Origin: Bacteroidales bacterium
Lineage (GTDB): Bacteria > Bacteroidota > Bacteroidia > Bacteroidales > UBA932
DNA: 42,627 nt
Reading direction: 5' to 3'
Assembly: GCA_017627955.1 (NCBI GenBank)
Contig: JAGAFU010000029.1
Coordinates: 1-42,627, forward strand
Shown here: one piece after another, positions 18,947 to 26,152 of the stretch
How the letters are laid out: every line of letters begins with the position of its first letter
Numbering within the stretch: position 1 is the first letter of the stretch
The notes under the pieces: model-generated
The model's database searches: none
Told to the model about the DNA's origin: nothing
Seen by the model: only the letters and a program-made list of their open reading frames with translations
Program-made: the position numbers and the translations under genes

Positions 18947-18954
18947 TATTTTTG
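18947..18954 (+). promoter_or_regulatory. Original lepA -7 element TATTTTTG, now cut off from lepA
   Basis: TATTTTTG ends 5 nt before the stranded lepA start codon at 18960. The spacing equals that seen before the GH2-like gene and lolD in this window. The promoter now drives only a 23-codon remnant. Confidence 0.5.
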
Positions 18955-18959
18955 CAATT

Positions 18960-19031
18960 ATGAAGCATATACGCAATTTTTGCATAATTGCAAAGGTGGA
19001 AAACAAGATTAAACAAAGAGCATTGAAATAG
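18960..19031 (+). pseudogene. lepA: Stranded 5' end of lepA at the left junction of the element
   Basis: The ATG at 18960 begins [11 protein letters not shown], the usual first residues of LepA in Bacteroidetes, then leaves the LepA frame content at the element boundary and reads KVENKIKQRALK before a stop. The rest of LepA continues at 24368 after the integrated element. This is therefore the original start of lepA, separated from its body by the insertion. It could still be translated as a 23-residue peptide. A terminator follows at 19052-19085. Confidence 0.75.
18966..18992 (+). repeat. Left attachment site (attL) repeat
   Basis: Twenty-three bases starting CATATACGCAATTTTTGC are identical to 24368-24390. 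They are followed by a T/C mismatch at 18989 versus 24391 and then three matching bases. The repeat encodes lepA codons 3-11 (HIRNFCIIA), so integration targets a conserved protein-coding segment. Confidence 0.8.
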
Positions 19032-19051
19032 AGTTAGTTAGGCTTTAATTT

Positions 19052-19085
19052 GGGCGGTCAAATTTCCTTTGATTTGCCCTTTTTT
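19052..19085 (+). terminator. Intrinsic terminator near the left end of the element
   Basis: A GC-starting stem (GGGCGG with TTGCCC, then TCAAA with TTTGA, one bulged T) closes a 5-nt loop and is followed by six T residues. It would stop transcripts from the stranded lepA promoter before the integrase gene. Confidence 0.6.
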
Positions 19086-19113
19086 GTTACTTATTTGTTA
19101 CCCGTTTGTTACT
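19083..19113 (+). promoter_or_regulatory. Three 11-bp-spaced TTTGTTAC repeats (candidate integrase arm sites)
   Basis: TTTGTTAC occurs at 19083, 19094 and 19105, exactly 11 bp apart, so all three lie on one face of the helix. The middle copy extends to TTTGTTACCCG, which recurs inverted at 19143-19153 and directly at 24307-24317 at the other end of the element. The pattern fits arm-type binding sites of a tyrosine integrase. Confidence 0.55.
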
Positions 19114-19131
19114 CAAATCCAAAAATAGTGT

Positions 19132-19153
19132 TATATTTGTGACGGGTAACAAA
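19132..19153 (+). promoter_or_regulatory. Integrase promoter -7 element with an overlapping inverted arm-like site
   Basis: TATATTTG at 19132-19139 matches TAnnTTTG. A possible -33 TTTG lies at 19105-19108, inside the third arm-like repeat. CGGGTAACAAA at 19143-19153 is the inverted form of the arm motif and lies between the -7 element and the integrase ATG at 19165. Binding of integrase here would repress its own gene. Confidence 0.5.
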
Positions 19154-19164
19154 CGAGCAAAATA

Positions 19165-20418
19165 ATGACAAAACGAAAGACTGTAAAGGCCAAAGAGCCG
19201 GTTAAAATCCGTTTCAAGTCTGTAAGCGGCGGCAATAAATCTATCTATCTCGACATATACCAGGGGGGCGTAAGGTTTTACAAGTTCCTCAAAATGTATC
19301 TTATCCCGGAGACCACGGAGGCGGCAAAGATGCAGAACGCCAACACACTAATAGCCGCCAACGCCATAAAATCCCAAATGATTATTGATCTCGCCAATAG
19401 CGAGGCGGGAATAAGGATAAACCCCGCCGGGGCAAGGCTGTTGCTTATGGATTGGCTCGACTTATACCAGGCAGACCGTGACAAGAAAGGCCGGAGGGTG
19501 GGCAACATTGTTCCCAACCTCAAGAAGATCCTCATTGCTTACAGGGGTGACAAGATTACTTTGCGCCAGGTAGACAAGCGGTATTGTCTTGGATTAATTG
19601 ACTATATGAGGAACGGCTATTTAACTCAATACGGCGGATTGTTAAGCACCTCAACGGCACACGCCTATTGCTCAATGTTCAGCACGGTATTAAAGGCGGC
19701 GGTAACGGCGGGCCTCTTGCCAACAAATCCCTTCGACAGGATCGCCACAGGCGACCGGATCGGGGCGGCAGATAGCAAGCGGGAATATCTGACCGCTACA
19801 GAACTGCAAACCCTAATAGCTACACCTTTCCCGGATAAGGGGATAATAAGGAAAGTTAACGGGCGTTTGTATGGTGGCCGGGATATAAGGGCGGCTTTCC
19901 TGTTCTCTTGCTTTACGGGGTTGAGGCTTTCCGATGTTAAGGCGTTGAGGTGGGGCAATATCGTTGAGGAAGGCGGGAAGTGGCGAATTGATGGCCTTAT
20001 TATCAAAAAAACCCGGAGGCCGTTGTATTTGCCTCTTGGAGGCGAGGCGTTAAAGCATTTGCCGGAGAGGAAGGAAGCCGGAGCGGAAGTGTTAGTGTTT
20101 AACTTGCCCGAAACGGACGGTTTCACAGACAAGAAGATAAAGGAATGGGCGGCGGCAGCTGGCCTCAAAAAGAAAGTGACATTCCATGTTGCACGCCACA
20201 CCTTCGCCACGTTGGAATTAACTGCCGGGGCTGACCTGTATACAGTTTCAACCCTTATGGGCCATACCAACGTATTAACAACCCAGATATACGCCAAGAT
20301 TATAGACCGAAAAAAGGTTGAGGCGGTCAATCTGGTAGACGGGTTATTCAACCCTCAGACGAAAACCCAGAAGAAGGGCCGGAAGATCCAGGCAACAACC
20401 GGCAACAAAGAGAGATGA
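19165..20418 (+). CDS. int: Tyrosine recombinase/integrase
   Basis: The 417-residue protein has an arm-binding-like N-terminus (about 10-80), a SAM-like core-binding domain (about 90-195) and a catalytic domain (about 205-395). The catalytic set is Arg254 (TGLRLSD), a Lys near 281, His341 and Arg344 (HVARHTFA), His367 (LMGHTN) and Tyr376 (TQIYAKI). It resembles Bacteroides phage/conjugative-transposon integrases. It should catalyse insertion into, and with a helper protein excision from, the lepA 5' end. It is the first gene inside the left end, with candidate arm sites immediately upstream. All active-site residues are present, so it may be functional. Confidence 0.93.
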   Translation: MTKRKTVKAKEPVKIRFKSVSGGNKSIYLDIYQGGVRFYKFLKMYLIPETTEAAKMQNANTLIAANAIKSQMIIDLANSEAGIRINPAGARLLLMDWLDLYQADRDKKGRRVGNIVPNLKKILIAYRGDKITLRQVDKRYCLGLIDYMRNGYLTQYGGLLSTSTAHAYCSMFSTVLKAAVTAGLLPTNPFDRIATGDRIGAADSKREYLTATELQTLIATPFPDKGIIRKVNGRLYGGRDIRAAFLFSCFTGLRLSDVKALRWGNIVEEGGKWRIDGLIIKKTRRPLYLPLGGEALKHLPERKEAGAEVLVFNLPETDGFTDKKIKEWAAAAGLKKKVTFHVARHTFATLELTAGADLYTVSTLMGHTNVLTTQIYAKIIDRKKVEAVNLVDGLFNPQTKTQKKGRKIQATTGNKER

Positions 20419-20492
20419 ATAAGACCGTATCAAGACTTTAGGTAATTATATATAATTAATTGATATTCAATAATATAATAATAATTTGAATT

Positions 20493-20741
20493 ATGGACAC
20501 TACAACCGATTTCAAGGTAAGCACTACAACGGGCTACCTGTTGAACGCACTACGCCACGTTGAGGCGGCAGAGGAATTCCTCTACAAATACAACTCTGAA
20601 CTGTTTGGCGAGGATACCGCCGCCAAGTTATCCGAGGAATACGCCGCCGTATTCGATCCCGCCCGGGGTTACGTCGAAAAAATGTTGGTCGAAGGCCTCA
20701 GGGCGTGGGCGAACACCATCGACCCCAACACGCCACTATAA
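20493..20741 (+). CDS. Small acidic protein of the integrative element, unknown function
   Basis: I do not recognise this 82-residue protein. It is helical and acidic, with ALRHVEAAEEFLYKYNSELF and FDPARGYVEKMLVEGLRAWA as the main helices. No membrane segment or signal is seen. An AT-rich stretch with no clear Shine-Dalgarno precedes the ATG. It sits between the integrase gene and the first copy of the element's long repeat, on the same strand. The small size and position would fit an accessory or regulatory protein, but nothing in the sequence proves it. Confidence 0.5.
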   Translation: MDTTTDFKVSTTTGYLLNALRHVEAAEEFLYKYNSELFGEDTAAKLSEEYAAVFDPARGYVEKMLVEGLRAWANTIDPNTPL

Positions 20742-20753
20742 ACCCACTCCCAA

Positions 20754-20916
20754 CCTCAACGGCGGAGCGGTATCTTGTTATGCAAGGTAGTGCTCTCGGC
20801 GTTGGTTTATGGGCGATCTTGGGAAAGGCCTCAGGGCGGCTTCATTTACCTCAACGGGAGGTGTTGCCCAGACCGGGCGAGAAAGCGCCGGAAATGGCCG
20901 GGAAAGGGCGAAAAAT
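20754..20916 (+). repeat. Element repeat, copy 1 (long form)
   Basis: About 163 bp are nearly identical to copy 3 (23981-24147), and the last 93 bp match copy 2 inside the 266-residue gene. It includes a TATCTTG-TTATG-CAAGGTA hairpin and the block starting AAAGGCCTCAGGGCGGCTTC. Compared with copy 3, one base is missing near 20808 (GGTTTATGGG versus GGTATTATGGG), which shifts the frame of the short reading frame shared by both copies. Here the copy is probably not coding. Confidence 0.75.
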
Positions 20917-20964
20917 GGATTGGCACGCCCAGAAGTTCGACACGTTTAACACAAAGCGGGTATT

Positions 20965-21765
20965 ATGTATATTGACATTGCCAAACTTAACCAATTGGAG
21001 CTGGATTTACAGGCGGTTATAGCTCTGGTGTCCGATGCTCCGGACTATAACGGAAAGATGTACAATGAGGTCTTAGGGCTTAACTTGCCCAGGGCCACAA
21101 AGACGTTATCGGAACTGTTCAACGTGGTTTGGAATGATTGCAACGATAAACAGAAGTCGGGTTTGCCTTTGCTCCAGATCGTGAGTGATATATACGGGCG
21201 ATTGAGGGAGATAGACCAAGCCGCCAGGACAATACCCGGCTTTGCCAACGATGTATTACGCCAGGACATTCGTTTTGAAGATGAATTCTATATGTGGTTT
21301 GAAGGGTTGAGGAATTATTTCCCGGAGGAAGCATGGACACCGGACACCAACACCGCCAACCTTGGAAAAGGCCTCAGGGCGGCTTCATTTACCTCAACGG
21401 AAGGTGTTGCCCAGACCGGGCGAGAAAGTGCCGGAGAGGGCAGGGAAACGGCAAACACGGGGGCGGTTAAGCTGCCTCGGGATCTTGATACGCCAGAGGC
21501 ACGGGGGCGGTTTGCTAAAGCTGTTGAGGCGGGCTATATGGAAGCCACCTCAACGGGATACAAGTGGTTAAGATTGCCAAAGGCGGCGGCCGCTTATTTT
21601 TTTGAAAAGATATATTGCCATGCCATTACTGACAAGCACCCAGATTGGGGGCTTTTGGGTCAATTATTTGGTCTTTTGAGGCTTGACCGGGCGGCCTCAC
21701 AAAATCTTGAGACCAAGAATGAGCGGCCGTGGAAACGGAAAATAGATGAACTTTTTGAGGATTGA
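20965..21765 (+). CDS. Unrecognised 266-residue protein containing repeat-encoded segment
   Basis: I do not recognise this protein. The N-terminal part (about 1-130) is helical (DIAKLNQLELDLQAVIALVS, RATKTLSELFNVVW, LRQDIRFEDEFYMWFEGL). Residues about 134-166, GKGLRAASFTSTEGVAQTGR and onward, are encoded by copy 2 of the element's repeat and look like a flexible Gly/Ser/Thr-rich linker. The C-terminal part (about 175-266) is again helical, with GYKWLRLPKAAAAYFFEKIY and LLGQLFGLLRLDRAAS. It has no signal or membrane segment. Similar C-terminal layouts occur in uncharacterised Bacteroidales mobile-element proteins. A strong terminator follows 4 bp after the stop codon. Confidence 0.6.
   Translation: MYIDIAKLNQLELDLQAVIALVSDAPDYNGKMYNEVLGLNLPRATKTLSELFNVVWNDCNDKQKSGLPLLQIVSDIYGRLREIDQAARTIPGFANDVLRQDIRFEDEFYMWFEGLRNYFPEEAWTPDTNTANLGKGLRAASFTSTEGVAQTGRESAGEGRETANTGAVKLPRDLDTPEARGRFAKAVEAGYMEATSTGYKWLRLPKAAAAYFFEKIYCHAITDKHPDWGLLGQLFGLLRLDRAASQNLETKNERPWKRKIDELFED
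21364..21462 (+). repeat. Element repeat, copy 2 (short form, inside a gene)
   Basis: About 99 bp match the right part of copies 1 and 3. Here the repeat is in frame inside the 266-residue gene and encodes a Gly/Ser/Thr-rich segment. The same translation frame is open in copy 3. Confidence 0.75.
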
Positions 21766-21769
21766 ATGA

Positions 21770-21794
21770 AAGCACCTTGAACGGGTGCTTTTTT
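21770..21794 (+). terminator. Intrinsic terminator after the 266-residue gene
   Basis: A perfect 7-bp stem, AAGCACC at 21770-21776 and GGTGCTT at 21784-21790, is followed by a run of T residues. It ends the integrase-side transcription unit of the element. Confidence 0.85.
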
Positions 21795-21807
21795 CTTTGC
21801 ACTATTT

Positions 21808-21827
21808 AGCCCACTATAGCCCACTAT
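21808..21827 (+). repeat. Tandem 10-bp repeat AGCCCACTAT x2
   Basis: AGCCCACTAT occurs twice without a gap, and CACTAT occurs once more just upstream at 21800. The repeat lies in the 179-bp gap between the terminator and the HTH gene, which also has a GC-rich stretch (21857-21960) with several CCGG repeats. It could be a binding site for the adjacent HTH protein; I see no clear -7 element here. Confidence 0.35.
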
Positions 21828-21973
21828 TTTTCTTTTGAATCCTTTCTCATTTTTGCAGCCGGAAACCACCGGAGGCCGGAGGGTGCAAGCCCGGCCAATG
21901 GTAACCACCGGGGCAAAGATGACCGCCACTTGCACGGCGAGCCGGAAGGCCTCAACTTAAACAATCAATTTCA

Positions 21974-22282
21974 ATGACGGATTTAGAAAAGATAGCGGAG
22001 CAATTAAACCGGGTTGAGCGTAACACCTTATTAGCGGCCAAGAATGTCTTAACCTTCGATGACGTGGCCTTACTAACGGGATTGAGTAAGAGCCACCTTT
22101 ACAAGCTCACAAGCACAAGACAGATTCCCTTCTACAAACCAAACGGAAAGAACGTGTTTTTCGATCGTTCCGAAGTTGAGGATTGGCTACGGCAGAACAG
22201 GGCCACCACCGAGCAAGAGGCCCAGAGTATGGCTGTCGCCCGTGAGGTAAAGGAGGCTCAGGCGTGGTCGCCCATAAGGTAA
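21974..22282 (+). CDS. Helix-turn-helix excisionase-like DNA-binding protein
   Basis: The 102-residue protein contains an HTH_17/MerR-like fold: LTFDDVALLTGLSKSHLYKL, then TSTRQIPFYKPNGKNVFFDR and SEVEDWLRQN (about 28-76). This is the usual layout of excisionase-type helper proteins in Bacteroidetes integrative elements. It probably acts as the recombination directionality factor or as a regulator of the rep gene. It overlaps the next gene region closely: the following ATG at 22294 starts 11 bp after its stop, behind a strong AAAGGAGG. Confidence 0.75.
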   Translation: MTDLEKIAEQLNRVERNTLLAAKNVLTFDDVALLTGLSKSHLYKLTSTRQIPFYKPNGKNVFFDRSEVEDWLRQNRATTEQEAQSMAVAREVKEAQAWSPIR

Positions 22283-22293
22283 AGGAGGACGGT

Positions 22294-22788
22294 ATGTATC
22301 TAACGGATTACTACAGATTCGAACACAAGCCAGGAAGTGCAAAGACACGTCTTGACTGTGTGGCCTCAACGAAAGAGTATGAGGAATTCGAAAGAAGGCG
22401 TTGCCGGAAAGTTACCAAGACAACAAAGCCGGGCGACCTGATTATATACTGCAACGATGCTTATAAGATCGACAATTTCAATGCCGATGCAAGGAGGAGG
22501 ACGGACAAAAGCCTCACGATCGGAAGCGAGAATATCAGTGGTATATATACCTTCCGTCCGGATTCCTCAACGGGTTTTGGCGATTTCCAAGGCACCCAAG
22601 ACGCTCTTTTGTTCAAGTTCGAGAATTTCCGTGCTATCGGGACTTCCGAGGCTACGGGGGTTGTTATTGATGTGTTTGTGGCGAGAGGGTTGAGGTATTC
22701 ACAGAATATGCTCTACAACCTTATGGAGAGCGGCGAGCTTGACGATGAAATAAACATCCTACGGGAGAAAGCCAGGGCAGAAAAATAA
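22294..22788 (+). CDS. Unrecognised 164-residue protein upstream of rep
   Basis: The start is set by AAAGGAGG at 22281-22288, five bases before the ATG at 22294; the longer open frame from 22264 lacks such a site. This strong Shine-Dalgarno is unlike the host genes in the window. I do not recognise the protein. It is a mixed alpha/beta soluble protein of 164 residues, with GDLIIYCNDAYKIDNFNADA, LTIGSENISGIYTF and ALLFKFENFRAIGTSEATGV. Its position between an HTH gene and the rolling-circle Rep is like that of small single-strand-binding or accessory replication proteins in filamentous phages, but no such motif is proven. Confidence 0.6.
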   Translation: MYLTDYYRFEHKPGSAKTRLDCVASTKEYEEFERRRCRKVTKTTKPGDLIIYCNDAYKIDNFNADARRRTDKSLTIGSENISGIYTFRPDSSTGFGDFQGTQDALLFKFENFRAIGTSEATGVVIDVFVARGLRYSQNMLYNLMESGELDDEINILREKARAEK

Positions 22789-22852
22789 CCGGTTGTAAAT
22801 AAGTACCCCTACCGATTTGCATAACGCTAGATGCCTATAGTAAGTTGCTCCC

Positions 22853-22871
22853 GGTTACCGTTTCCGTAACC
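22853..22871 (+). promoter_or_regulatory. Hairpin just upstream of rep
   Basis: GGTTAC at 22853-22858 and GTAACC at 22866-22871 form a 6-bp stem with a 7-nt loop, 19 bp before the rep ATG. It lies in the 102-bp gap that follows the previous gene and could be part of an origin, an operator or a translational control site. Confidence 0.35.
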
Positions 22872-22890
22872 ATATAGCAAAGCAGGATGT

Positions 22891-23832
22891 ATGTACGATA
22901 CTGTCTATATGAAGTTATGTAGTTATGAGATACCGGAAGTTTCCCTATTGGAGGAAATTCCCGGTTATCTTGATAGCGTTACGGGCGAACACATTTTCAA
23001 TGGTTCCCCGGTCTTAACGGGTTGCCTCGGTAGTCTAGGTGTATCTATTGAGCCGGGGGCGTTGAGGATTAACAGAGGGAGTCTGTGCAAGTGGTTTCTT
23101 GGCGACAACGTTGGGAAGATGAGCCGGGGCGACACGGAAAGGGCGATAGAACGGCTTTCCGATTCCTTACACTTGCCTATGTATCGGGCGATAATAACGA
23201 GGTTTGACGTTGCACAAAACCTCATTATGAAATACCCGGCGGCGGTCTATGCAAACCACCTCGGAACGTTGAAGTACGCCACCAGGCTAATAGAGCCTGA
23301 TTGCCTGTATTACAAACAGAGGGCGGGGCGGCTTGCCTTCTACGACAAAACAAAAGAGGTTATGAGCCATAGAAGCGGCGAGATCCCGGAGATATGCAAA
23401 AGCCATAATATCCTACGGTATGAGCGGCGATTTGAACACCGCTTGACACATTACCTCAACGAGCCGGATATAACGGCCTCAACGTTATACGATGAGCGGT
23501 TTTATATCAAAGTGGTAGACTTCTGGCACAATGCATATAAGGACATAGAGAAAATTAACAACATATCAATTAACACGGAGGCGATGAGAAGCAAAAGACA
23601 GTTTGATATAGCGGCACGTCTGGCCTTGGTTGAGAAGTTTGGAGGCGAGGCGGCTTTTCTGGAAATTCTCAAAGAGAAACAGAGGCAAGGCGAGGTTACC
23701 AAGAAGCAGGCGTTCGATATACGACAGGCAATTAAAGAGGCTTGCACGTCTGGCGAGAGTTTAACCGTTAAGAGCGATGCGATAGAAGAATTAGACAAGA
23801 AGATAAAGGAGGCGGCGGCTTACTACAGATGA
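22891..23832 (+). CDS. Phage/plasmid replication protein, gene II/X family (rolling-circle Rep)
   Basis: The 313-residue protein begins MYDTVYMKL and contains AIITRFDVAQNLIMKYPAAV and YYKQRAGRLAFYDKTKEV, with ILRYERRFEHRLTHYL later, the pattern of the II/X replication proteins of filamentous phages and related bacteroidete elements. Such proteins nick one strand at the double-strand origin and start rolling-circle replication. A helical tail (about 240-313) follows. The gene suggests that the excised element can replicate as a circle. No obvious Shine-Dalgarno precedes the ATG. The nearby non-coding gaps hold hairpins suited to an origin. The catalytic tyrosine cannot be fixed from the sequence alone. 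Confidence 0.78.
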   Translation: MYDTVYMKLCSYEIPEVSLLEEIPGYLDSVTGEHIFNGSPVLTGCLGSLGVSIEPGALRINRGSLCKWFLGDNVGKMSRGDTERAIERLSDSLHLPMYRAIITRFDVAQNLIMKYPAAVYANHLGTLKYATRLIEPDCLYYKQRAGRLAFYDKTKEVMSHRSGEIPEICKSHNILRYERRFEHRLTHYLNEPDITASTLYDERFYIKVVDFWHNAYKDIEKINNISINTEAMRSKRQFDIAARLALVEKFGGEAAFLEILKEKQRQGEVTKKQAFDIRQAIKEACTSGESLTVKSDAIEELDKKIKEAAAYYR

Positions 23833-24249
23833 GCCAGAGGGGAGGGTAACCCATAGGGGGCTCAAATCTCTCCGAGGCGATCGCCGGATAACCACTCCCC
23901 CGGTTTTGCGCTCGAAAATGCAGAAAAACTTAGGGGAATAAAAATGACCTAAAAATGCCCAATGTTGAGGTAAAGCAAGACCTCAACGGGGGAGCGGTAT
24001 CTTGTTATGCAAGGTAGTGCCATAGGCGTTGGTATTATGGGCAATATAGGGAAAGGCCTCAGGGCGGCTTCATTTACCTCAACGGAAGGTGTTGCCCAGA
24101 CCGGGCGGGAAAGTGCCGGAAATGGCCGGAAAAGGGCAAATACGGGGCTTGTGCCTTATTACGGCACAACACAGGTGACACGCCTGTAAGGAGGGGACAT
24201 CTTCTTAACGTTTGGCGGCACATAATCAATGGAATTCCGGAAAGATTGC
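23833..24249 (+). other. Structured non-coding region after rep (candidate origin or ncRNA)
   Basis: This 417-bp stretch holds no convincing gene. It contains a GGCGATCGCC palindrome (23876-23885), a hairpin of GTTGAGGT (23964-23971) and ACCTCAAC (23980-23987), a TATCTTG-TTATG-CAAGGTA hairpin (23998-24016), copy 3 of the element repeat, a TTGTGCC/GGCACAA hairpin (24149-24169), and an ACAGG/CCTGT hairpin (24171-24187). A 60-residue reading frame (24007-24189) runs through it and is in frame with the repeat-encoded segment of copy 2; its status is uncertain. The density of hairpins next to rep suits a replication origin or a structured RNA. Confidence 0.45.
23981..24147 (+). repeat. Element repeat, copy 3 (long form)
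   Basis: About 167 bp are nearly identical to copy 1, and its right part is nearly identical to copy 2. It begins with CCTCAACGGGGGAGCGGTAT and includes the same hairpin as copy 1. A short reading frame beginning MQGSAIGVGIMGNIGKGL stays open through it. Confidence 0.75.
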
Positions 24250-24257
24250 TATATTTG
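24250..24257 (+). promoter_or_regulatory. Element-borne -7 element TATATTTG serving lepA
   Basis: TATATTTG matches TAnnTTTG. A start site a few bases downstream falls at about 24263, where the leader hairpin begins. No other promoter-like element lies between the hairpin and the lepA ATG, so this is the likely source of lepA mRNA after integration. A -33 TTTG at the usual distance is not clear. Confidence 0.5.
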
Positions 24258-24262
24258 TCAGT

Positions 24263-24345
24263 AGAAAGTCCGTTCCCGGCTTCTTATTAGGCCGTTTTGT
24301 TTCTGGTTTGTTACCCGCTTCCCCAAACAAACGGACTTTCTTTTT
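24263..24345 (+). promoter_or_regulatory. Long-range inverted repeat in the lepA leader (attenuator or insulator)
   Basis: AGAAAGTCCGTT at 24263-24274 pairs perfectly with AACGGACTTTCT at 24330-24341, followed by T residues to 24345. The 55-nt loop holds the two right-end arm-like sites. Shape and T-run look like a terminator, yet the lepA ATG follows only 11 bp later. It may stop read-through from the element or act as an attenuating or stabilising leader. Confidence 0.55.
24296..24317 (+). promoter_or_regulatory. Right-end arm-like sites, 11 bp apart
   Basis: TTTGTTTCTGG at 24296 and TTTGTTACCCG at 24307 lie 11 bp apart. The second is identical to 19094-19104 near the left end. They are candidate integrase arm sites of the right end. 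Confidence 0.5.
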
Positions 24346-24355
24346 AAAAATCAAT

Positions 24356-26152
24356 ATGTTACAAACTCATATACGCAATTTTTGCATAATCGCACATATC
24401 GACCATGGCAAGAGCACTCTGGCCGACAGGCTCCTGGAACTTACCCAGACCCTGTCCGCCCGTGACATGGAGGCACAGGTGCTGGACGATATGGATCTTG
24501 AGAAAGAAAAAGGCATCACGATTAAGAGCCATGCCATACAGATGGAATATTCCTACAAAGGCGAGAAATACATTCTCAATCTGATCGACACCCCCGGGCA
24601 TGTGGACTTCTCCTATGAAGTTTCCCGCTCCATCGCGTCGTGTGAGGGCGCTCTTTTGGTGGTGGATGCCACGCAGGGCATCCAGGCCCAGACGATCTCG
24701 AACTTGTACCTTGCCGTGGATCATGGCCTTGAGATAATCCCGGTGCTCAATAAAATAGATATGGAGTCCGCCCAGGTCGATGTGGTCTCTGACCAGATCG
24801 TGGACCTTCTCGGGTGCGACCATGACGAGATATTCAAAGTTTCAGCCCGTACCGGCGAGGGAATACCTCCTCTCCTTGATGCCATCGTCGAGAAGATCCC
24901 GGCCCCGAAAGGGGATCCCGAGGCCCCTCTGCAAGCTCTGATATTCGACTCCGTGTTCAACCAGTTCCGGGGTATAATCGCTTATTTCAAGATACTTAAC
25001 GGGTCGATATCCAAAGGTGACAAGGTCAAGTTCGTGGCCACCGGGATGGAATATGAGGCCGAGGAAGTCGGTGTCCTGAAGATGAAACTTTGCCCTACGG
25101 AAAAAGTGTCCACCGGTGATGTCGGTTATATCATATCCGGCATCAAGAGGGCCGTGGAGGTCAAAGTCGGTGATACCATCACCCATTCCGCCCGTCCCTG
25201 CGAGAGCGCCATCGCCGGTTTCGAGGAGGTGAAGCCGATGGTCTTCGCCGGAATGTATCCTGTCCAGGCGGACAAGTTCGAGGAACTTCGGGCGACGCTC
25301 GAGAAATTCCAGCTGAACGATGCTTCCTTCGTCTATGAACCGGAGTCATCGCTGGCCCTGGGATTCGGTTTCCGGTGCGGTTTCCTTGGACTTTTGCACC
25401 TTGAGATAGTGCAGGAGAGGCTGTTCAGGGAGTTCAACATGGATGTTATCACGACGGTCCCCAATGTCTCTTACAAAGTTTACACTACCCAGGGAGAGGT
25501 CATTGATGTCCACAATCCTTCCGGCCTTCCCGCCCCTACCCTTATCGACCACATCGAGGAACCCTACATCAGGGCCCAGATCATCTCCAAGACGGATTTC
25601 TATGGCCCCATCATGAAGCTTTGCATGGACAAGAGAGGCACTTTGATCGGGGAGCATTACATAACTTCCGACCGGGTGGAACTGACTTACGACATGCCAT
25701 TGTCCGAGATCGTGTTCGACTTCTATGACAAGCTCAAGTCGATCTCGAAGGGTTACGCGTCCTTTGACTATCACGTGATCGATTTCCGTCCGGCGAGACT
25801 GGTGAAGCTCGACATCCTTTTAAACGGGGATCCCGCTGATGCGCTATCATCGCTTATCCATGAGGATCACGCCTACGATTTCGGGCGCAAAATGTGCGTC
25901 AAACTGAAAGAACTCATTCCGCGCCAGCAGTTTGACATCGCCGTACAGGCCGCAATCGGAGCCAAGATCATCGCCCGTGAGACTGTCCGTCAGGTCCGTA
26001 AGGATGTGACCGCCAAGTGTTACGGTGGAGACGTTACCCGTAAGCGCAAGCTTTTGGAGAAGCAGAAGGAAGGCAAGAAGAGGATGCGCCAGATCGGGAC
26101 CGTGCAGGTTCCCCAGAGCGCCTTCATGGCCGTCTTGAAACTTGATTCCTAA
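24356..26152 (+). CDS. lepA: Elongation factor 4 (LepA), start region rebuilt by the element
   Basis: The start is the ATG at 24356 ([13 protein letters not shown]); an upstream open frame from 24212 is not LepA-like. The 598-residue GTPase has the G1 motif AHIDHGKST (about 13-21), DTPGHVDF (G3) and NKID (G4), then domain II, an EF-G-like domain III/V region ([20 protein letters not shown]) and the LepA-specific C-terminal domain ending in [22 protein letters not shown]4 back-translocates or remodels stalled ribosomes. The first four codons (MLQT) come from the element, and the next nine lie in the attR repeat. The promoter is therefore also element-derived. The length is normal. Confidence 0.96.
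24368..24394 (+). repeat. Right attachment site (attR) repeat inside lepA
   Basis: The first 23 bases are identical to attL at 18966-18988, followed by one mismatch (C at 24391, T at 18989) and three matching bases. Beyond it the sequence continues as intact lepA (AHIDHGKST), so this is the chromosomal junction. Confidence 0.8.

Follow-up and report, generated by a model that had tools for sequence, protein, structure and literature searches.

How can a mobile element enter the first codons of a translation-factor gene and leave that gene able to yield its product? The question is raised by a stretch of 42,627 nucleotides from an uncultured Bacteroidales bacterium (contig JAGAFU010000029.1 of assembly GCA_017627955.1; the whole stretch is called the window below), in which a 5.4-kb (5,402-bp) insertion occupies the first codons of lepA, the gene for EF4. 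We consider it very likely that the insertion is a small integrase-bearing element, probably satellite-like, which integrates in lepA codons 3-11 and supplies a replacement start, a leader and a probable promoter. The two junctions comprise the following features.

18947 to 18954, plus strand: native lepA -7-like box TATTTTTG, ending 5 nt before the native ATG at 18960
18960 to 19031, plus strand: left remnant of the native lepA start, continued by 12 codons of the element and a stop
18966 to 18992, plus strand: left copy of the direct repeat (attL core), 27 nt, one mismatch against the right copy
24250 to 24257, plus strand: -7-like box TATATTTG of the element, directed towards lepA
24263 to 24341, plus strand: folded leader with closing stem, inner helices and U-run, terminator- or attenuator-like
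24356 to 26152, plus strand: lepA (EF4), 598 aa, with the element-supplied start MLQT for native MK
24368 to 24394, plus strand: right copy of the direct repeat (attR core), 27 nt, one mismatch against the left copy

At the left junction the native ATG and the beginning of LepA are kept, and non-LepA sequence follows up to the stop codon that ends at 19031. At the right junction lepA is intact from the ATG at 24356 (TIGR01393, E = 2e-292). The two repeat copies lie 5,402 bp apart, start to start, and span native codons 3-11. A preliminary description of this DNA had recognized the LepA beginning with its box 5 nt upstream, the intact remainder of the gene and the 27-nt repeat with one mismatch at both ends, all of which we find as described. 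Its placement of the left end of the element at 18947 was mistaken, as this position is the first base of the native -7 box. The further claim that the first codons are replaced holds, but the N-terminal change is limited to the residue after Met, where K gives way to LQT with a gain of 2 aa.

The nature of the two flanks is settled by relatives that lack the element. We sought lepA in 61 genomes, the source of the window included, and kept 30 loci, of which 29 belong to relatives in the same genus. Each of these 29 lepA starts runs uninterrupted into HIDHGKST, and at three loci (L008 in G017, L009 in G033 and L010 in G020) the left flank of the window is joined directly to intact lepA; by eye, the L008 upstream region differs from the window flank by one mismatch in about 57 nt. 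The left flank is thus host sequence, while the right-hand start and the region upstream of it belong to the element. Filled sites are present in three species, one of them represented by the right junction only. A second species of the same genus (G417) has both junctions on the same strand, 4,754 bp apart, enclosing genes homologous to those of the window in the same order (integrase 73% identical, C-terminal part of the 266-aa protein 69%, helix-turn-helix protein 79%, 174-aa protein 63%, replication-associated protein 65%), then a DUF5681 protein and the restarted lepA. In a member of another genus (G229), the helix-turn-helix, 174-aa and replication genes and a further small open reading frame (ORF) run into a lepA restarting MNKLQGAVRDFCIIA; the integrase end of this element was looked for and not found, as it lies off the contig. 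In all three genomes the element-supplied start codon restores the lepA reading frame. Together with a tyrosine integrase and the flanking repeats, the empty and filled sites bear out the earlier proposal that the element integrates site-specifically at the start of the lepA coding sequence.

Where within the repeat might the exchange take place? The left copy holds GCAATT-TTTGCAT-AATTGC, perfect 6-bp inverted arms around 7 bp. The central TTTGCAT is identical in attL and attR of both the window and G417, while adjoining bases differ in G417, as expected if TTTGCAT is the overlap. Against this stands G229, which has TCTGCAT at the same place, so that the overlap stays a proposal. Candidate binding sites flank the core at both ends.

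19083 to 19112, plus strand: three TTTGTTAC repeats with 11-bp spacing and an inverted copy at 19146; a similar array is present at L089
24296 to 24314, plus strand: arm-like repeats TTTGTTTC and TTTGTTAC, 11 bp apart, inside the leader

Arrays of the TTTGTTAC type with 11-bp spacing occur at either end of the elements in the window and in G417, TTTGTTTC being one member of the right-hand pair in the window, and no copy of TTTGTTAC is found on either strand in 37,198 bp of window flank. These arrays are probably arm-type sites of the integrase or excisionase; the occurrence of TTTGTTAC once each in the tRNA-type elements of G168 and G331, described below, weighs against that assignment.

We propose that tyrosine recombination would place the element into the DNA of codons 3-11, the crossover probably falling within the 7-bp spacer TTTGCAT between the inverted 6-bp arms. 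The insertion would sever lepA from its own promoter and first codons, and the right end would bring a ready-made replacement: a promoter-like box, a folded leader of about 93 nt, and a start codon with three further codons, in frame with the repeat. Because the replacement is in frame, a nearly unchanged LepA could still be made and the insertion tolerated.

Is the replacement upstream region a working promoter? TAnnTTTG is the -7 element of Bacteroidota, and a box of this form precedes the lepA ATG by no more than 40 nt in 23 of the 29 same-genus loci. All three right ends (window, G417, G229) show the same succession of a TAnnTTTG box, a few bases further on the folded leader, a U-run and the ATG, the box in the corresponding position of G417 and of G229 being TACCTTTG. 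Folding z-scores, computed on hand-chosen stretches around the stem with 200 shuffles each, are -3.62 for the window (24264-24358) and -3.66 and -3.37 for the others, with 0, 0 and 1 of the 200 shuffles as stable. In the three-row alignment of the leaders, 5 of 23 pairs are changed on both sides with pairing kept, and 3 pairs on one side only. The conservation of box and leader suggests that the box may be an active promoter and that the leader may modulate transcription. Several points weigh against this reading. The -33 region before the window box is weak by eye, and a scan for E. coli-type promoters finds none near 24250; 2 of the 23 leader pairs do not hold in one row, one of the two belonging to the five doubly changed, and the covariation comes from three sequences, two of them very alike. 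The leader matches no known RNA family at gathering threshold in four sources (the sole match is the tRNA of the window), and its pattern has no match in viral contigs.

The same stem and U-run might, moreover, end transcription rather than aid that of lepA. The hairpin would then be the terminator of the element, lepA would be weakly read through, and EF4 would be damped rather than controlled. In each of the three elements a U-run follows the stem, and there is a precedent in dusA, whose expression falls after integration of IMEVchUSA3 (PMC8409611; cited papers are represented by excerpts here and below). An E. coli-type terminator scan flags only the inner hairpin of the leader at 24277-24294. 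Against this alternative stand the TAnnTTTG box directly before the leader in all three elements and the distribution of the motif in the window, where three of its 11 copies on the plus strand (42.6 kb) precede native lepA, the integrase gene and the new lepA start. We regard termination as a credible alternative that falls short of being the favoured one. That the promoter of the element drives lepA and that EF4 comes under its control is plausible and an attractive possibility. Of the new start, leader and promoter claimed in the preliminary description, the start and the upstream region are thus confirmed, and promoter activity is plausible from the conserved box.

In the excised circle, which would join the regions 24250-24394 and 18966-19165, the right-end box would face the integrase gene from a distance of about 300 bp on its upstream side. 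One could imagine the right end as a portable regulatory cassette toggling with integration, whose promoter and folded leader, the latter with its arm-type repeats, would set lepA (EF4) output in the chromosome, the same promoter facing the integrase gene in the circle, an improbable extension in our estimation. If true, it would couple a host translation factor to the excision machinery of the element. Should the leader modulate EF4, the arrangement would offer a natural system for probing the little-understood role of this factor.

What kind of element is it? Its interior contains six ORFs and a set of long repeats.

19132 to 19139, plus strand: TATATTTG box upstream of the integrase gene
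19165 to 20418, plus strand: tyrosine integrase, 417 aa (Arm_5, SAM_5, Phage_integrase); the G417 integrase at this site is 73% identical
20493 to 20741, plus strand: hypothetical protein, 82 aa, no family matched
20753 to 20912, plus strand: long repeat copy 1 (D2+D1)
20965 to 21765, plus strand: hypothetical protein, 266 aa; its residues 154-266 have a 69% identical counterpart in G417
21350 to 21455, plus strand: long repeat D1 copy inside the 266-aa ORF
21974 to 22282, plus strand: HTH_17 / AlpA / excisionase-like DNA-binding protein, 102 aa, by family match
22264 to 22788, plus strand: conserved hypothetical core protein, 174 aa from GTG, 35-65% identical in each of the nine related loci read
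22891 to 23832, plus strand: Phage_CRI (G2P-like) replication-associated protein (Rep), 313 aa (PF05144, E = 4e-16)
23980 to 24140, plus strand: long repeat copy 3 (D2+D1), at the position of the DUF5681 or terminase-small-subunit-like gene in relatives

The integrase gene adjoins one att site. The long repeat measures about 106-160 nt, its 106-nt part being present in three copies that are 86-92% alike. Homologues of Rep at E <= 1e-10 were found in 18 of 299 family genomes, the source of the window included. Of the other 17 we read the best eight loci, and in addition G417 (L089-L097), leaving aside the nine weaker ones. The gene order integrase, helix-turn-helix/AlpA-like, Rep is shared by the window and eight of the nine related loci, L090 being cut before the integrase.

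The element is small, carries its own G2P-like Rep and is probably phage-satellite-like or otherwise helper-dependent. Phage-inducible chromosomal islands likewise combine an integrase, an AlpA-like regulator and a replication module, and the comparison extends to the structural genes, none of which was found in the window element, and to a TerS-like gene in one relative; they differ in size, at about 12-15 kb against 5,402 bp, and in the G2P-like Rep present here (PMC6092414). An ordinary integrative mobilizable element is the rival interpretation, since a G2P-like replication protein could act as relaxase, and no capsid, lysis or other structural family is matched among the six window ORFs, three of which lack a clear family. 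No relaxase or coupling-protein family is matched among the same six ORFs either, and before the right end relatives have a gene either for a terminase-small-subunit-like protein (L091; phrog_2538, E = 6.2e-7) or for one with DUF5681 (L089, L094). We judge a mobilizable element rather doubtful and prefer, with moderate confidence, satellite-like transfer, with the absence of a terminase-small-subunit-like gene from the window element itself counting against this preference. Rep has no confirmed match in viral contigs and none in phage records, and among 72,556 plasmid records it is matched in one, at 28% identity.

The source genome is an assembly of 60 contigs, and the junctions might in principle stem from faulty assembly or, with no mobile DNA involved, from a local duplication of the lepA start; this is practically negligible, as the architecture recurs at the same codons, with element proteins 63-79% identical, in a separate genome with both junctions (G417) and its right half in a third (G229). 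Duplicated lepA starts without an integrase were also looked for. A degenerate RNFCIIA pattern is matched in 343 of 398 family genomes and twice in five of them (rows counted by hand), a lower bound because no mismatch was allowed and other spellings were missed (G229 gave 0). The window and G417 alone have both copies on a single contig, equally oriented and about 5 kb apart, and are the only true junction pairs among the five. The second match in G124 and in G331 is a chance reading frame, and that in G303 belongs to a second lepA on another contig.

Integrases of the lepA type are rare. At E <= 1e-130 they are found in 2 of 400 genus genomes and in 1 of 393 order genomes, the latter being the source of the window. 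Weaker matches at E <= 1e-60 appear in 30 of 299 genomes, again including the window's own, and the fetched flanks of 19 loci (L037-L055), with integrases 38-49% identical, contain no lepA start. Among genome contigs the integrase gave seven loci, with lepA in the fetched stretch only at L098, which is the G417 record. Phage records with the integrase number 156, of which 22 cover at least 80%, the best-ranked one, from human faeces, being 46% identical. Tandem integrase pairs, each member 30-46% identical to the window integrase, were seen at L099, L100, L101, L102, L105 and L106, on contigs labelled Oscillibacter, Oscillospiraceae or Muribaculaceae and on viral contigs.

How much of this arrangement is already known? 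The dusA-specific integrative elements are larger than the one in the window. Like it, they (IMEVchUSA3 among them) target a conserved gene at its 5' coding end, replacing promoter and N-terminus through integration there; they differ in being mobilized by IncC plasmids and in that expression was measured for them (PMC8409611, PMC4482086). For dusA the comparison of the new N-terminus covered 35 residues, whereas only the residue after Met changes here. SXT likewise supplies promoter and N-terminus for prfC (PMC8409611), and the SXT/R391 integrative conjugative elements thus resemble the window element in using the 5' end of a translation-factor gene. They differ as conjugative elements of about 100 kb. 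The lepA gene itself is a known target: a Gifsy-1-like prophage was found inserted in its 5' end in Salmonella, the earlier noted site of Gifsy-1 (PMC10100743), a 2026 study deleted lepA only from 123 bp past the start codon, preserving the prophage excision site (PMC13090387), and lepA is cited as the most prevalent prophage-flanking site in Salmonella (PMC5502288). These prophages share the gene and the end of it with the window element; they differ from it in that no structural family is matched in the latter, and the likeness drawn here is one of insertion site. The available excerpt of PMC2603039 does not mention lepA, and PMC3401170 was set aside as a precedent since the matching word in its excerpt is the name of an author.

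In view of the dusA, SXT/prfC and Gifsy-1 reports, mechanism and target gene were each already known in Gammaproteobacteria, and insertion at a 5' gene end with a replacement start is a rare but established style. Literature searches, limited to open-access sources, showed among the papers listed no title on the lepA site or such satellites in Bacteroidota, and within that literature a 5-kb element family of Bacteroidia-type bacteria at lepA is new to us. This family of very small elements would join the few that re-promote a housekeeping gene they break, and it suggests that insertion at the 5' end of lepA arose independently in these bacteria and in Salmonella.

The insertion sites of the nine Rep loci extend the picture beyond lepA: two lie at lepA and six at tRNA 3' ends, and the ninth locus, L095, has a 41% identical integrase in an element cut by the contig end. 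The tRNA-type members (L091, L092, L093, L094, L096 and L097) are elements of about 4.6-6.6 kb in this bacterial family. They share the helix-turn-helix, 174-aa and Rep core, their integrases being only 26-29% identical over the aligned part, and are inserted at tRNA-Leu(TAG), tRNA-Leu(CAA) and tRNA-Arg(CCG), two cases each, the two Arg cases being closely alike. Exact direct repeats of 14-33 nt lie at the tRNA 3' end (an overlap derived from coordinates), and these members have end repeats of their own, TAGTACAC in five and TTTGGCTACC in G331. The same core genes combined with distant integrases at tRNA 3' ends in six members indicate that the core genes have moved between attachment systems and that the target has switched. 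One backbone would thus have exchanged its attachment system, moving between the 3' ends of tRNA genes and the 5' end of a protein-coding gene, and it is at the latter that the target gene needs a built-in replacement start.

A heptamer, CCTCAAC/GTTGAGG, is overrepresented on either strand of the elements, in their coding and their non-coding DNA alike. The window element (18966-24367) has 23 copies against about 1.5 expected from an order-2 Markov model, the heptamer having been picked after the fact as the top 7-mer and some of these copies lying inside the long repeats. Counts are 27 in G231, 14 in G280, 14 in G185 and 19 in G167, the elements concerned being those at L091, L092, L093 and L097, and 0 in the tested flanks of G231, G185 and G167. 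They are also raised in the flanks of the window (15 vs 5.5) and of G417 (6 vs 1.1), and are weaker in the elements of G417 (8), G168 (4) and G331 (2), with 0 in G080. In the coding DNA of the window element, 17 copies compare with a mean of 2.4 (maximum 9) in 300 synonymous-codon shuffles; the corresponding values are 20 vs 1.3 in G231 and 4 vs 1.2 (maximum 4) in G168. The heptamer may possibly serve as a packaging, recognition or Chi-like signal.

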